Positions 42,545 to 48,025 of a stretch of DNA of 64,000 nt are shown piece after piece. This DNA comes from Algoriphagus terrigena DSM 22685 (GTDB lineage Bacteria > Bacteroidota > Bacteroidia > Cytophagales > Cyclobacteriaceae), in NCBI RefSeq assembly GCF_000429445.1, contig NZ_KE386904.1, positions 1 to 64,000 on the forward strand. Direction: 5' to 3'. The position numbers were made by a program, and so were the translations under genes. Under the pieces are notes generated by a model, which made no database searches, was not told the origin of the DNA, and saw nothing but the letters and a program-made list of their open reading frames with translations. Positions within the stretch are counted from its first letter, which is position 1; each line of letters starts with the position of its first letter.

Positions 42545-42964
42545 CTACCCAAAATTCTCATTAACCACCTTCCAAAAAGCCTCCGAGGTCAAAGGTTTAT
42601 TTACAAATTCCTTCACCACGGGTATCTGGGCTGCTCTTTCTATATCATCGGGATTATTGCTAGTCGACAGCATCACCACAATGGACCGATCAAGAATTTC
42701 CTGAGAGAGTTCATCGTATTTGACCAGAAAATCCCAGCCGTTCATTCCCGGCATATGGATATCCAGAAAGATAATACCCGGCTGAGGGAGCTCCGCATAA
42801 TCTCCCTTGCTAAGCAAAAAGTCAAGCCCCTCTTCGGCTGATTTCACGGATTGAATATGCACTCCAGTGGACTCTTCCTCCAAGATTATCGTGTGATAGA
42901 AGTTAGTGGCTTCATCATCGTCAATAAGCAAAACACACTCTAACTGTTGGATTTTCTCTCTCAT
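42545..42964 (-). CDS. Single-domain response regulator
   Basis: A 139-residue stand-alone receiver. Acidic pocket Asp15-17 (LLIDDDE), phospho-acceptor Asp68 in FLDIHMPGMNG, Ser/Thr switch in MLSTS and Lys in NKPLT are all present. No output domain is attached, so it probably works by protein contact or as a phosphate shuttle, as in Rcp1-type regulators. It is the third gene of a set with an ethylene-receptor-like membrane protein and a histidine kinase, 87 bp after the kinase. Confidence 0.92.
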   Translation of the reverse strand: MREKIQQLECVLLIDDDEATNFYHTIILEEESTGVHIQSVKSAEEGLDFLLSKGDYAELPQPGIIFLDIHMPGMNGWDFLVKYDELSQEILDRSIVVMLSTSNNPDDIERAAQIPVVKEFVNKPLTSEAFWKVVNENFG

Positions 42965-43015
42965 AGGATTATAATTTTCTTTCGATGGCCATAGGAAATC
43001 TCGCCAGACTCACAG

Positions 43016-43038
43016 TCAAGCGATTGTATGACGCTTGA
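43016..43038. other. Stem-loop between kinase and response regulator genes
   Basis: TCAAGCG and CGCTTGA form a perfect 7-bp stem with a 9-base loop, about 15 bases after the kinase stop codon. No T-run follows. It could set the relative expression or RNA stability of the two genes. Confidence 0.4.
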
Positions 43039-43051
43039 GTCCTGCTCGATT

Positions 43052-44209
43052 TCATTTGATTTTCGTCAAGGTAAAGTAAAATGCACTGCCCTGGTTTTTT
43101 TTGGAGTCGATCCAGATTTTCCCTCCGTGTAGTTCCACGATCTTACGACAATATGCCAAGCCCAACCCCATCCCTTCGTATTGCTCAGTTGGATGAAGGC
43201 GCTGGAAAATAAAGAATATTTTCTCGTAGTCGGTTTGATCTATTCCTATTCCATTGTCTCTGACGCAAAATTCAATATGCGACCCAATGTCCTTTGCAGA
43301 CAATTCAATCACGGGTAAGACACTTTTGTCACTGAATTTCAACCCGTTGCTGATCAAATTTTGAAAAAGCATGCGCAACTCTACCGGATTTCCCAACACG
43401 ACCGGTAGCTCATTTACTTTAATGGTGCCCTTGGAAGCTTTCAGACTTGAATCAAAATCCAATACAATGTTATTTACCAACTCATGGCAATTCACGGGTT
43501 GGGTCTCCCGCTTAATGCCTATTCTGCTAAATTCCAGCAACCCTCTGATCAAAGTTGTCATCCTGCTGGTGGCAGATGTTACATAGTCCAGCATTCGCTT
43601 TCCCTGATCGTCAAAGTTTGGATAGTACTTTTTGGCGATCAGTTGAGTCATGTTGCCGATCGTGCGAAGCGGCTCTTGCAGGTCATGGCTGGCGATGCTC
43701 GTAAACCGTTCCAGTTCCCGGTTTTTGACCACCAAGTCCGCATTCAACTTTTCAAGCTGGACTTTCTTTTCGGACAGTTCATCCTGCTTGGCGTCCAACT
43801 CTTTCAACTTTTCCAGCAGAGTATTTGAACGCTCTGAAAGCTGCGCATTGATGCCTTCCAAACTCGAAAAACTACTTTTTGCTAGAAAAACAAGCGTCAC
43901 GCAAGTCCAGATAACCACAAGCGCTATCACGGCATTTATTCCTGATAGATTGTCGGCCGTGGTGGTGAATACGTTGGTCCGTATTGCCGCTACAATCGTC
44001 AGAACCGTGCAAACTGCCGCGGTATAGATACTCGCAAATTTGCCTGGCAGAAGCCAACTATATAAGATCACTACCGAATACATTCCGGCTACCGCCACCG
44101 TACTGCTCGTATTCAGATCCACGATGAACACCACGCTGGTGATCAAGGTCGCCATGAAAACCAAGACGGCATTCTGAAAAAGTAGCATTGATCTTCCCCG
44201 GGTATCCAT
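43052..44209 (-). CDS. Membrane sensor histidine kinase
   Basis: A 385-residue kinase. Residues about 10-112 hold about four membrane helices with short loops and no large periplasmic domain. A coiled coil (about 113-168) leads to HisKA with His175 in SIASHDLQEPL, then the ATPase: N box NLISNGLKFSD, G1 DNGIGID, F box IFFIFQRLHP and G2 GMGLGL. Its ATG overlaps the stop of the preceding ethylene-receptor-like gene by one base (TAATG), a sign of coupled translation and probable complex formation. The kinase lacks its own known sensor domain, so the neighbour may supply the signal. Likely partner: the receiver gene downstream. Confidence 0.93.
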   Translation of the reverse strand: MDTRGRSMLLFQNAVLVFMATLITSVVFIVDLNTSSTVAVAGMYSVVILYSWLLPGKFASIYTAAVCTVLTIVAAIRTNVFTTTADNLSGINAVIALVVIWTCVTLVFLAKSSFSSLEGINAQLSERSNTLLEKLKELDAKQDELSEKKVQLEKLNADLVVKNRELERFTSIASHDLQEPLRTIGNMTQLIAKKYYPNFDDQGKRMLDYVTSATSRMTTLIRGLLEFSRIGIKRETQPVNCHELVNNIVLDFDSSLKASKGTIKVNELPVVLGNPVELRMLFQNLISNGLKFSDKSVLPVIELSAKDIGSHIEFCVRDNGIGIDQTDYEKIFFIFQRLHPTEQYEGMGLGLAYCRKIVELHGGKIWIDSKKNQGSAFYFTLTKIK

Positions 44210-44688
44210 TAGTCAGTTTTAGCGCTCAGCTGTTTTTTTAGCGCTTCAATCTCCAATTCATAGCTTCTCAGTTGCTTTTCCAGCTGATAAGTTTTTAGCT
44301 CATCCTCAGTCTTCACTACAATCAGCTTGGGCAGATCCCGAATGAGCGCAAAAGCTGTGGCTAAACTCACTAGCGCCGTAAATACCCGCAGAAGCGCACT
44401 CAAGCGGTATCCTGGCCACCAAAACATAACTGCATCCATCAGATGAGTGCTTCCGCAAAGGATAATGAAAGCTCCAAAGAGCCAAAAGACAGGTAGAAAT
44501 GGAATGTTTTGCCGCTTTTGTATAAAATAAATGATGATCGCCGGAATGACGAAATAAGCCAGCCAGATTGCAATATCGCTGGTAATATACAGCCAGCCAT
44601 GAAACGGCGACCAATTGCCACAGAACCAACGTGGCGGCCAATCATCAGATGAAAATAGATTGGCGAAAAAGTCGATCACTTGCTCCAT
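44209..44688 (-). CDS. Stand-alone ethylene-binding-type (ETR1-like) membrane sensor protein
   Basis: A 159-residue protein made of an ethylene-receptor-type transmembrane domain and a short coiled coil, with no kinase. Residues 34-55 (YITSDIAIWLAYFVIP) and 72-82 (GAFIILCGSTH) align by eye with plant ETR1 ISDFFIAIAYFSIP and GAFIVLCGATH. Asp38, Tyr45, Ile48, Pro49, Cys78 and His82 correspond to ETR1 Asp25, Tyr32, Ile35, Pro36, Cys65 and His69, the residues known to bind the Cu(I) cofactor and ethylene. A third helix (about 99-116) leads into LIVVKTEDEL, like ETR1 LLSVKTREL. Trp-rich N-terminus PPRWFCGNW is unexplained. Ethylene or copper sensing is inference from the family. Confidence 0.85.
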   Translation of the reverse strand: MEQVIDFFANLFSSDDWPPRWFCGNWSPFHGWLYITSDIAIWLAYFVIPAIIIYFIQKRQNIPFLPVFWLFGAFIILCGSTHLMDAVMFWWPGYRLSALLRVFTALVSLATAFALIRDLPKLIVVKTEDELKTYQLEKQLRSYELEIEALKKQLSAKTD

Positions 44689-44981: not shown

Positions 44982-45512
44982 ATGACCATCTCATATCATT
45001 CTCAGATCAGTGCATCGACTGCCATGTCCTGCACAGTCAAAACAGCCAGAGCGGAATCCGTAGGATCGATCAAAGAATTCATGATCAACACCGTCACCGG
45101 TCAGGTGGATTATGTCGTACTGAAGGTCGACGAAGGATTTCTAAATCTGGGGTCTAAGCTTCTCGCTTTGCCATTTGAATCCTTCGAGTTTAACACCGCG
45201 CAGGACGATGTCGTAGTGGTCAAGGAGACCAAGGAGACGCTGGAAAATGCACCCGGATTTGACAGCGACAACTGGCCATCCGGTCCACAAGCTGAGTTTC
45301 TGCACACGATGCGCACCTACTACAGCGAGGAGCCACGCAGCCTGTATGGCCGATACGACCATACCAACAGGTCATACTACGAGGACGAGGATCGATTCGA
45401 TTTCGACGCCGATCAGATTCGCGACCAGGAATTCGGCCACGGATTCGCAGAAAGAGATCGTCGGGGAGACCGGCCGTCAGATTTACGCAGAGGTGGAGAT
45501 CCGCTTCTGTAA
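44982..45512 (+). CDS. PRC-barrel domain protein with charged tail
   Basis: A 176-residue soluble protein. Residues about 18-85 form a PRC-barrel: SVGSIKEFMINTVTGQVDYVVLK is typical, followed by LNLGSKLLALPFESFEF. The last 60 residues are rich in Asp, Glu, Arg and Tyr and look disordered. PRC-barrels mediate protein or RNA contacts and in many bacteria occur in stress-related small proteins. It stands alone, with a terminator after it, so no partner can be named. Confidence 0.85.
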   Translation: MTISYHSQISASTAMSCTVKTARAESVGSIKEFMINTVTGQVDYVVLKVDEGFLNLGSKLLALPFESFEFNTAQDDVVVVKETKETLENAPGFDSDNWPSGPQAEFLHTMRTYYSEEPRSLYGRYDHTNRSYYEDEDRFDFDADQIRDQEFGHGFAERDRRGDRPSDLRRGGDPLL

Positions 45513-45645: not shown

Positions 45646-46668
45646 CTACCCTCGATGACTCGCGGGGTTCTTCTCCTTCTGAAAGCTATAAATCAAATAT
45701 CCCAGCGAGGGCAGGATAAAAATACTTCCAAGGAGCAGCGCCCAAGCCAAAGTTTCGATGGGTTTTCCGACAGCGGCTGCGTTGAAGACGGTGAGGTTCT
45801 CACCAGCGCTCGTGATCACTATATCCGGGAAATAATGGTAGCCAAAAGCCAAAAGAACAGCTGTGACAACGAATCCAGCCAAGGCTCTCGACAGTAAGCG
45901 TCCAGCCTTGGGCAGCTGGATCCAAAGGACAATCATTGCCACCGTCGCCAAAAGCAAGATTCCCACCGTGACTATTTCGCCCAGCAGCAGCCCGACGAGT
46001 GGAACGTCCTGGAGTTCCGCAGCCAAGAACACTACTCCTCCCGCCAAGACCGTCGCCAGGATGAATAGCCGCGATCTCGTGACAAGGAATCTTTTCTCCG
46101 CTTCGTTACCCGCCTCTCCCACCAAGAAAACTGCCGCCAGAAATCCGCAGATGGCCACGGTAAATACACCCACCGATACACTGAATCCATTCAGCCAAGG
46201 CCAGACGTATGCACCAAGAAAGTCAACCGCGCCCGGGTCGATCTTTCCCCCGATCGAAGCCGCGAAGATCAAGCCCAGAAAAAACGGTGTCACAAAACTG
46301 GAAACGGTAAAAATCAGATTGTAAACCCGCTGCATCTCGTCCTGCACCGCATCGTAATGTCGGAACACGAAAGCGGTCCCTCTGCCGATAATCCCAAACA
46401 GCATCAAAAGCAAAGGAATGTGCAGATGGATGGACAATAGTGAGTAGACAGCCGGAAATCCGACAAACAGGATCACAATCGTGATGATCAGCCACATGTG
46501 ATTTGCTTCCCAGATCGGGCCGATGGTCTCGTAAGTCCTAGCGCGGATCTTGTTTTTCATCCGCTCCGGGGTCACGAGTTCGATGATCCCAGCACCAAAA
46601 TCCGCTCCGCCGAGCAGGACATATAGCAAGATCGAAAAGGCTAGAAAGACAATGACGACGTAGAGCAT
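45646..46668 (-). CDS. cydB: Cytochrome bd oxidase subunit II
   Basis: A 340-residue, multi-helix inner-membrane protein of usual CydB length. Recognisable features include the start of helix I, LLGGADFGAGIIEL, ERMKNKIRARTYETIGPIWEANHMW, and FPAVYSLLSIHLHIPL. With CydA it forms the quinol oxidase that reduces oxygen to water at high affinity. Ten bases separate it from cydA. No small CydX-type subunit was recognised downstream. Confidence 0.95.
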   Translation of the reverse strand: MLYVVIVFLAFSILLYVLLGGADFGAGIIELVTPERMKNKIRARTYETIGPIWEANHMWLIITIVILFVGFPAVYSLLSIHLHIPLLLMLFGIIGRGTAFVFRHYDAVQDEMQRVYNLIFTVSSFVTPFFLGLIFAASIGGKIDPGAVDFLGAYVWPWLNGFSVSVGVFTVAICGFLAAVFLVGEAGNEAEKRFLVTRSRLFILATVLAGGVVFLAAELQDVPLVGLLLGEIVTVGILLLATVAMIVLWIQLPKAGRLLSRALAGFVVTAVLLAFGYHYFPDIVITSAGENLTVFNAAAVGKPIETLAWALLLGSIFILPSLGYLIYSFQKEKNPASHRG

Positions 46669-46678
46669 GAGCGAAAGA

Positions 46679-48025
46679 TCAGGAGTTTGATGGGAACGGA
46701 TTTTCTTTAGGATCTGAAGCTTTTCGAAGCGAGTCCGGAACAGCCTTGATCTGTCGGATCAACAAAAATGTCACCACGACGGCCAGAGAGACGTAGATAC
46801 CGACAAACAAAAACAGGGAATACACGATCCCGGGAATCGGGCTTACGGCATCTTCGGTGCGGAGCACTCCATAGATAATCCAAGGCTGTCGGCCCACCTC
46901 GGTCACCGTCCAGCCGGCTTCCAGCGCGATAAATCCAAGAGGTGTGCCCAGCACAAACAGCCAGAGAAACCAGCGGGCGTCGAGCCATTCTTTCTTTTTC
47001 CATCGGGAAAAGAAAAACAGCAGACTCAGCCCAACCAGCGCCATCCCCAAGCCAACCATGATCTGAAAAGCGATATGCGTCACCATCACCGGGGGATGAT
47101 CTTCCTCCGGAAACTGATCCAACCCGATCACCTCGGCGTCAAAGTCTCCATGCGCCAGAAAACTCAAAGCTCCGGGGATCTCGATCGCGTAATCCACTTT
47201 CTTGTTTTTCACATCGGGAAGGCCGCCGATAATCAGCGGGACGGACTTTCCGGTTTCGAAATGCGCTTCCATAGCCGCCAATTTTGCAGGCTGCCTTACT
47301 GCAATGTCTTTGGCAGAGATATCTCCCGAAATCGGCTGCAAAATCGCCGCCACCCCTCCAAAGAGCAATGCAATCACAAATGCCATGCGGTGAAATTCGA
47401 CGTTCTTGCCCTTGAGCATCATGTAGGCGTGGATCCCCGCCACCGCAAAGCCGGTGGACACAAACGCCGCCAGCGTCATGTGCAAAGCCTGTGAAAACCA
47501 TGCGTCGTTAAACATCGCCGCGATGGGGTCGACATTCAGATACTGTCCATCCACGAAATCAAATCCTGCCGGACTGTTCATCCAGGCGTTAGCGGCCACC
47601 ACCAAGATCCCGGATGCGAGCCCGCTGATGCCAACCACGACGCCCGTGAACCAGTGAAACCAGGGGGAAAACCGATCCCATCCGTACAGGAAAAATCCCA
47701 GCGCAATCGCCTCGATGAAGAAGGCCGTGCCCTCGAGGGAAAACGGCATCCCAAAGATCGGTCCGGCGTGCAGCATAAACTTCGGCCAGAGCAGACCCAG
47801 CTCGAAGGAGAGAACCGTCCCTGAGACAGCTCCCGTCACGAAAAAAATCGCCACCCCTTTGCTCCAGGCTTTAGTCAGATCTTTGTAAAGTGGCTTTTTG
47901 GTTTTGAGATATTGGTAGTGGGAGGTAGCCATGAAGAAGGGCATTACCATCCCGATACAGGCAAAAATGATATGAAAGCCCAGCGATACTGCCATCTGCC
48001 ATCGGGCAGCGAGAAGATCCTCCAT
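46679..48025 (-). CDS. cydA: Cytochrome bd oxidase subunit I
   Basis: A 448-residue quinol oxidase subunit. His18 (SLGFHIIF) is the equivalent of the conserved N-terminal haem ligand; LHMTLAAF carries the second His. The periplasmic quinol loop shows GDISAKDIAVRQPAKLAAME, and EAGWTVTEVGRQPW is the family signature. The loop is short compared with E. coli CydA (522 aa), so it belongs to the short-Q-loop (CIO-like) type. First gene of the cydAB operon; the upstream 282 bp show no clear promoter match. Confidence 0.95.
   Translation of the reverse strand: MEDLLAARWQMAVSLGFHIIFACIGMVMPFFMATSHYQYLKTKKPLYKDLTKAWSKGVAIFFVTGAVSGTVLSFELGLLWPKFMLHAGPIFGMPFSLEGTAFFIEAIALGFFLYGWDRFSPWFHWFTGVVVGISGLASGILVVAANAWMNSPAGFDFVDGQYLNVDPIAAMFNDAWFSQALHMTLAAFVSTGFAVAGIHAYMMLKGKNVEFHRMAFVIALLFGGVAAILQPISGDISAKDIAVRQPAKLAAMEAHFETGKSVPLIIGGLPDVKNKKVDYAIEIPGALSFLAHGDFDAEVIGLDQFPEEDHPPVMVTHIAFQIMVGLGMALVGLSLLFFFSRWKKKEWLDARWFLWLFVLGTPLGFIALEAGWTVTEVGRQPWIIYGVLRTEDAVSPIPGIVYSLFLFVGIYVSLAVVVTFLLIRQIKAVPDSLRKASDPKENPFPSNS

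Follow-up and report, generated by a model that had tools for sequence, protein, structure and literature searches.

The plant, cyanobacterial and Azospirillum ethylene receptors described in the accessible parts of the literature that we searched are single chains; the locus analyzed here raises the question of whether such a receptor can also be built from two, a protein with an ethylene-binding domain (EBD) and a separate histidine kinase. It lies in a 64,000-nucleotide stretch of the genome of Algoriphagus terrigena DSM 22685 (the window), and the original prediction, made from the letters alone, was of an ETR1-type membrane domain, a kinase and a receiver, in that order and all on the minus strand, with the first two genes sharing one base. 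Open reading frames (ORFs) and Pfam domains confirm this gene order, and the shared base is present in the sequence. The features of the locus are these:

44209..44688, minus strand: standalone EBD sensor, 159 aa (ORF and ETR1_N match)
44320..44601, minus strand: ETR1_N domain proper, sensor residues 30-123 (Pfam), in which the seven binding positions of ETR1 hold D38, Y45, I48, P49, I75, C78 and H82
44212..44319, minus strand: sensor residues 124-159, a C-terminal helix of low conservation that is probably cytoplasmic (AlphaFold2 model and identity comparison)
44207..44211, minus strand: TAATG, sensor stop and kinase start with one shared base (read in the sequence)
43052..44209, minus strand: partner histidine kinase, 385 aa (ORF and Pfam), with a core resembling bacteriophytochrome kinases
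43865..44209, minus strand: four-helix membrane (4TM) domain of the kinase, residues 1-115 (hydropathy of relatives and a medium-confidence model)
43715..43864, minus strand: long helix or coil of the kinase, residues 116-165, leading from the 4TM domain to HisKA (model helix 87-198)
43067..43714, minus strand: HisKA (residues 166-230) and HATPase_c (residues 274-381) of the kinase (Pfam), with H175 the phospho-acceptor by motif
42545..42964, minus strand: single-domain receiver (CheY/Rcp1-like), 139 aa (ORF and Pfam)

The match to ETR1_N (E 1.3e-35; 122 bits, where the cut-off is 27) puts the membrane domain well inside the ethylene-binding family, a point on which the prediction had been made to depend. 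HisKA (E 7.7e-10) and HATPase_c (E 4.8e-24), with the phospho-accepting histidine and the receiver domain (Response_reg, E 2.4e-12), make up a two-component system; no output domain was found by Pfam in the receiver. EBD and kinase are not joined in one polypeptide of the ETR1 or AzoEtr1 type, being encoded in separate ORFs in different frames; the sensor has its own gene adjoining that of the kinase, an arrangement of the H-NOX/HqsK type. No second EBD match was found in the window genome (5.78 Mb), the sensor being the sole one. Upstream of the sensor are a divergent PRC-barrel gene (44982-45512, plus strand) and the genes for cytochrome bd oxidase subunits II and I (45646-48025, minus strand), none of them a conserved neighbor. 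A promoter scan found 2 candidates where 3.9 were expected by chance, and a terminator scan found 5 against 2.7 expected, little above chance.

Aligned with the N-terminus of Arabidopsis ETR1, the sensor is identical at 46 of 122 residues and shares with it a three-helix EBD in which all seven ethylene-binding positions are kept. Three of these positions in ETR1 are Asp25, Cys65 and His69. In the accessible text of the papers concerned, all seven residues are required for ethylene binding (PMC11819568, PMC6682694), D25, C65 and H69 are among the named ethylene-binding residues (PMC11819568, PMC12643061), and these three form the Cu(I) site (PMC12643061). The same seven sensor residues are matched in a colinear alignment with AzoEtr1 of Azospirillum brasilense, whose plasmid-borne genes the sensor matches at 33% identity (E 2e-18); the ORF found there has 525 aa and starts as in the published AzoEtr1, and its D35, C75 and H79 are numbered as in the publication. 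Residues 1-130 of AzoEtr1, expressed in yeast, are described as binding ethylene (PMC11819568), so an EBD without an attached kinase can bind the gas, as a standalone sensor needs to do. The seven positions are present in all 22 sensors of the split clade described below, bar one I-to-L replacement, and this conservation suggests that the window sensor may bind Cu(I) and ethylene.

Three hydropathy peaks, marking the three transmembrane (TM) helices of an EBD, are present in the split sensors; one (L070) has a fourth, N-terminal peak. An AlphaFold2 model of the window sensor (mean pLDDT 70.7, pTM 0.37) places helices at residues 28-58, 64-88, 92-122 and 128-158. A search by sequence for a solved structure of the sensor gave no meaningful match (best E 1.4).

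The kinase has a membrane domain of its own. Its model (pLDDT 79.6, pTM 0.54) has helices at residues 4-33, 37-53 and 59-77, followed by one from 87 to 198; a Foldseek search with this model ranked bacteriophytochrome kinases first or close to it, the kinase core alone being matched. No Pfam family matches the window 4TM domain even at E 10, and in a Pfam scan of 24 4TM members the best weak match was to MASE1 (E 0.0026, in 2 of the 24). TM4 lies 64 residues from the phospho-accepting histidine in 16 of 23 relatives; helix end-to-histidine distances were compared to probe the register of the coil and gave no clear rule. Between the 4TM domain and HisKA, the kinases of 6 of the 23 relatives carry some 90-345 extra residues, which in alignment look like PAS domains; all six retain the 4TM domain.

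An EBD gene was counted as standalone when the match fell in an open frame of at most 244 aa, and a match as strong at E ≤1e-15. The 295 genomes sampled from the window's GTDB family contain 77 strong matches, 22 of them standalone and 55 in frames of at least 379 aa. In 390 genomes of the order, a sample that shares genomes with the family sample, 15 of 97 matches are standalone; a sample of the phylum (395 genomes) gave strong matches in 20, of which the window's alone is standalone. The overlapping genus, family and order samples yield 28 distinct standalone EBD genes, window included, the other 27 being taken with loci of 5-8.5 kb. A 4TM kinase lies directly downstream of 24 of the 28 (window included), one has a broken kinase and three have none. 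The predicted separate sensor polypeptide beside a four-helix kinase is thus an architecture of at least 24 loci, and conservation of the gene pair in related genomes, the other point on which the prediction hung, was found as well. Carriers of the split include Marivirga sericea, Aquiflexum gelatinilyticum, Cyclobacterium plantarum and a Cyclobacteriaceae MAG. Within the window's genus carriage is patchy: none of the 35 other genomes in one sample reached the cut-off, the 21.7-bit match of G021 staying below it, while G330 and G633 carry the gene.

In the locus with the broken kinase (L089, genome G288), an intact split-type sensor stands next to a kinase gene interrupted by stop codons, and a sensor gene can therefore outlast its partner kinase, at least for a while. 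Of the three standalone EBD genes without a kinase, L094 is a fragment running off the end of its contig, and L091 and L096 are orphans. The orphans (L091, 3761-4429, and L096, 4208-4837, both on the minus strand) encode EBD proteins of 222 and 209 aa, respectively, with long C-terminal helices; all seven binding residues are kept in L091, and F and L occupy two of the positions in L096.

A profile of the 4TM domain, made from the split kinases, was run on the same 295 family genomes; weak relatives may be missed because at most 15 first-look candidates per genome were scored. Matches at E ≤1e-5 occur in 29 of the 295 genomes, and in 22 of these they exceed 90 bits. High scores for the split kinases follow from the construction of the profile, and the informative part is the absence elsewhere: standalone EBD and 4TM domain above 90 bits occur in the same 22 genomes and in no others, one of the kinases being the broken one. 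In the remaining seven genomes the scores are 28-44 bits and no EBD was matched, so a 4TM domain can work without one. These weak relatives show the same four-helix pattern in kinases (L129 and L131) and in other proteins (L125, L126 and L132); the domain therefore belongs to a wider family with no Pfam entry, one branch of which accompanies the EBD. The three nonkinase proteins, of 173-179 aa and from genomes without an EBD match, combine the 4TM-type domain with a conserved cysteine-rich tail (CxxCKKIKD).

The 4TM domain was found in none of the 41 fused EBD ORFs of the fetched loci (E ≤1e-3). About half of these ORFs are truncated where their locus stops, three are near-copies of others, and the set represents only part of the sampled fused genes. 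A natural fusion of EBD and 4TM kinase was sought among the 41 and not found; ORFs of 500-550 aa, equal to the combined length of sensor and kinase, lack the 4TM domain.

With start codons picked mechanically, the 24 sensor-kinase gene pairs (window and relatives) comprise 15 that overlap by one base, five by four and one by eight, the other three being spaced 4-8 nt apart. Outside the window, kinase and receiver genes overlap in 16 of 19 loci and are 1-5 nt apart in 3 of 19; in the window itself the two are separated by 87 nt (42965-43051), against the overlap or near-overlap of its relatives. The sensor and the kinase are present in 24 of the 24 loci and the receiver in 19. As for the five loci without a complete matching receiver, one ends before it (L086), one holds a cut copy (L087), and in three (L075, L076 and L095) none was found adjoining the kinase despite sufficient DNA. 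No other gene family occurs in more than three of the 24 loci, except antisense shadow ORFs (10 loci). A wider operon or an output gene was considered, and none is conserved among the 24; cydAB upstream and a SusC/SusD pair downstream of the window system are not conserved neighbors in the relatives' loci and are regarded as coincidental.

With a single cyanobacterial sequence as its root, a tree of 64 EBDs gathers the 22 split sensors into one clade (99/99) nested among fused receptors, which fits a single fission of a fused receptor. The sensors of L091, L094 and L096 fall outside this clade, and a single origin for all 25 short EBD ORFs was rejected (p-AU 7.7e-60). In the kinase tree, the split kinases lie near the kinase of a fused receptor (L057) and the bacteriophytochrome-like kinases of the window genome, mostly without strong support; shared descent with the kinases of fused receptors is thus weakly supported.

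The reading that we prefer, at a probability of roughly 60%, takes the system to be an EBD receptor of two subunits, served by a receiver of its own and with a single origin in Cytophagales; the three proteins very probably constitute one functional unit. At the site known from ETR1 the three-helix sensor would bind Cu(I), and by way of the copper also ethylene; it would be made together with the 4TM kinase, and the two would assemble in the membrane. Ligand-dependent movement of the sensor helices would then be passed to the membrane helices and coil of the kinase, and the resulting change in the kinase would alter phosphorylation of the single-domain receiver. Phosphotransfer from kinase to receiver is suggested by the gene order and its conservation in 19 of 24 loci; the physical contact, the direction of signaling and the output of the receiver are likewise expectations of this model. 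As to origin, the system would derive from fused EBD receptors in Cytophagales, the EBD having become a separate gene and the kinase having a 4TM domain in its place.

Other accounts of the same genes have been weighed. Overlapping sensor and kinase genes in different frames are what a sequencing error or frameshift in a fused receptor gene might leave behind, but the split recurs in 24 loci with differing stop/start junctions, named isolates included, and the kinase has a membrane domain of its own that is absent from every fused receptor examined; recurrence refutes this artefact, to which we attach next to no probability. It is also conceivable that the proteins are co-expressed yet separate in function, the 4TM kinase responding to a signal of its own and the EBD serving other partners or the handling of Cu(I). 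The related 4TM domains in kinases without an EBD, the orphan EBD proteins without a neighboring kinase and the survival of a sensor beside a broken kinase all fit such independence; yet the 22-of-22 co-occurrence, in both directions, in 295 genomes, the overlap of the two genes in 21 of 24 pairs and the retention of the 4TM domain where extra cytoplasmic domains have been inserted (6 of 23 kinases) argue against it, and we consider it improbable.

Somewhat less remote, though still unlikely, is a two-subunit receptor whose signal is not ethylene but copper status, redox or another small Cu(I) ligand. The conserved residues define the Cu(I) site (PMC12643061), ethylene is just one possible ligand, and a cytochrome bd oxidase operon stands upstream in the window; however, conservation of the neighborhood does not extend to the bd oxidase genes, and all seven ethylene-binding residues are kept, beyond the copper ligands themselves.

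If the two-subunit receptor is accepted, the sites at which its chains might meet can be sought in the pattern of conservation. Identity to the window averages 83% across the membrane domain of the sensor and 46% along its C-terminal helix; the corresponding figures for the kinase are 53% (4TM domain), 48% (coil) and 62% (core). The split sensors have ten fixed positions that are rare in their fused relatives, and nine of these lie in predicted membrane helices (L43, I51, Q57, P66, V67, G72, I76, I116 and R117). With three crossings in the sensor and four in the kinase, both C-terminal helices would be cytoplasmic, and the docking of one coil on the other, as first proposed, is possible. It is not the favored arrangement, because the coils are the least conserved parts, the sensor membrane domain is the most conserved, and 9 of the 10 split-specific positions are in predicted membrane helices; the comparison leans towards contact within the membrane. 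The split-specific positions could instead be explained by the shared ancestry of the split clade. Opinion is evenly poised on a stricter version of the preferred reading, that of an obligate two-subunit ethylene receptor, the product of one fission, in which the EBD subunit drives a dedicated 4TM kinase by intramembrane contacts; the 4TM domain may then act as a socket that accepts separate sensors in general, or it may add a second input.

Comparison with known systems sets off what is particular to this one. ETR1 is a single EBD-GAF-kinase-receiver polypeptide (PMC12643061), whereas the window system occupies three genes and its kinase has a second membrane domain. AzoEtr1, for all the likeness of its EBD, has EBD, PAS and kinase fused in its 525 aa (PMC11819568). 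Cyanobacterial receptors such as SynEtr1 have an EBD with the same residues (seen in Okeania L021), but theirs is fused to cytoplasmic domains and a kinase, as in the single 902-aa ORF of Okeania. The fused receptors of Spirosoma panaciterrae (L014) and genome G511 (L057) have EBDs near the split clade (on an unsupported branch), a bacteriophytochrome-like kinase core and, in L014, an adjacent receiver gene; unlike the split system, each is one polypeptide (376-387 aa) without a 4TM domain. The original prediction had also counted the receiver of its own among the unusual traits of the divided receptor; a separate receiver is not unusual, as a response-regulator gene adjoins that of AzoEtr1 (PMC11819568) and the regulator to which SynEtr1 signals is encoded downstream of it (PMC6682694).

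The nearest working precedent for separate sensor and kinase is H-NOX with HqsK in Vibrio parahaemolyticus, where the gas sensor is a protein of its own and shares an operon with the kinase under its control (PMC6759604). The analogy is one of design: H-NOX is a soluble haem protein for NO and of an unrelated sequence type, whereas the window sensor is an integral membrane protein with a Cu(I)-type domain. No Bacteroidota or split EBD receptor was found in the accessible parts of the open literature searched (including PMC11819568, PMC7700396, PMC6682694 and PMC12643061), although an earlier mention is possible, for example in the reviews of Papon and Binder (2019), Carlew and others (2019) and Lacey and Binder (2016).

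If the two-subunit reading is correct, ethylene or Cu(I) sensing would extend to a group of Bacteroidota, with a receptor design unlike that of any single-chain ethylene receptor, and the separate NO sensor H-NOX would have a counterpart in the membrane. A first candidate role would also fall to the related 4TM domain, which is common in other proteins and belongs to no Pfam family. How the movement of an EBD is relayed to the kinase is a matter of current work, and a naturally separable sensor and kinase would open this step to direct test.

Another divided or broken EBD system is possibly present in the Acaryochloris plasmid pMB01, where an EBD ORF of 305 aa without annotation (L172, 2989-3906) is followed, about 1.4 kb downstream, by genes annotated as an ATP-binding protein and a response regulator.
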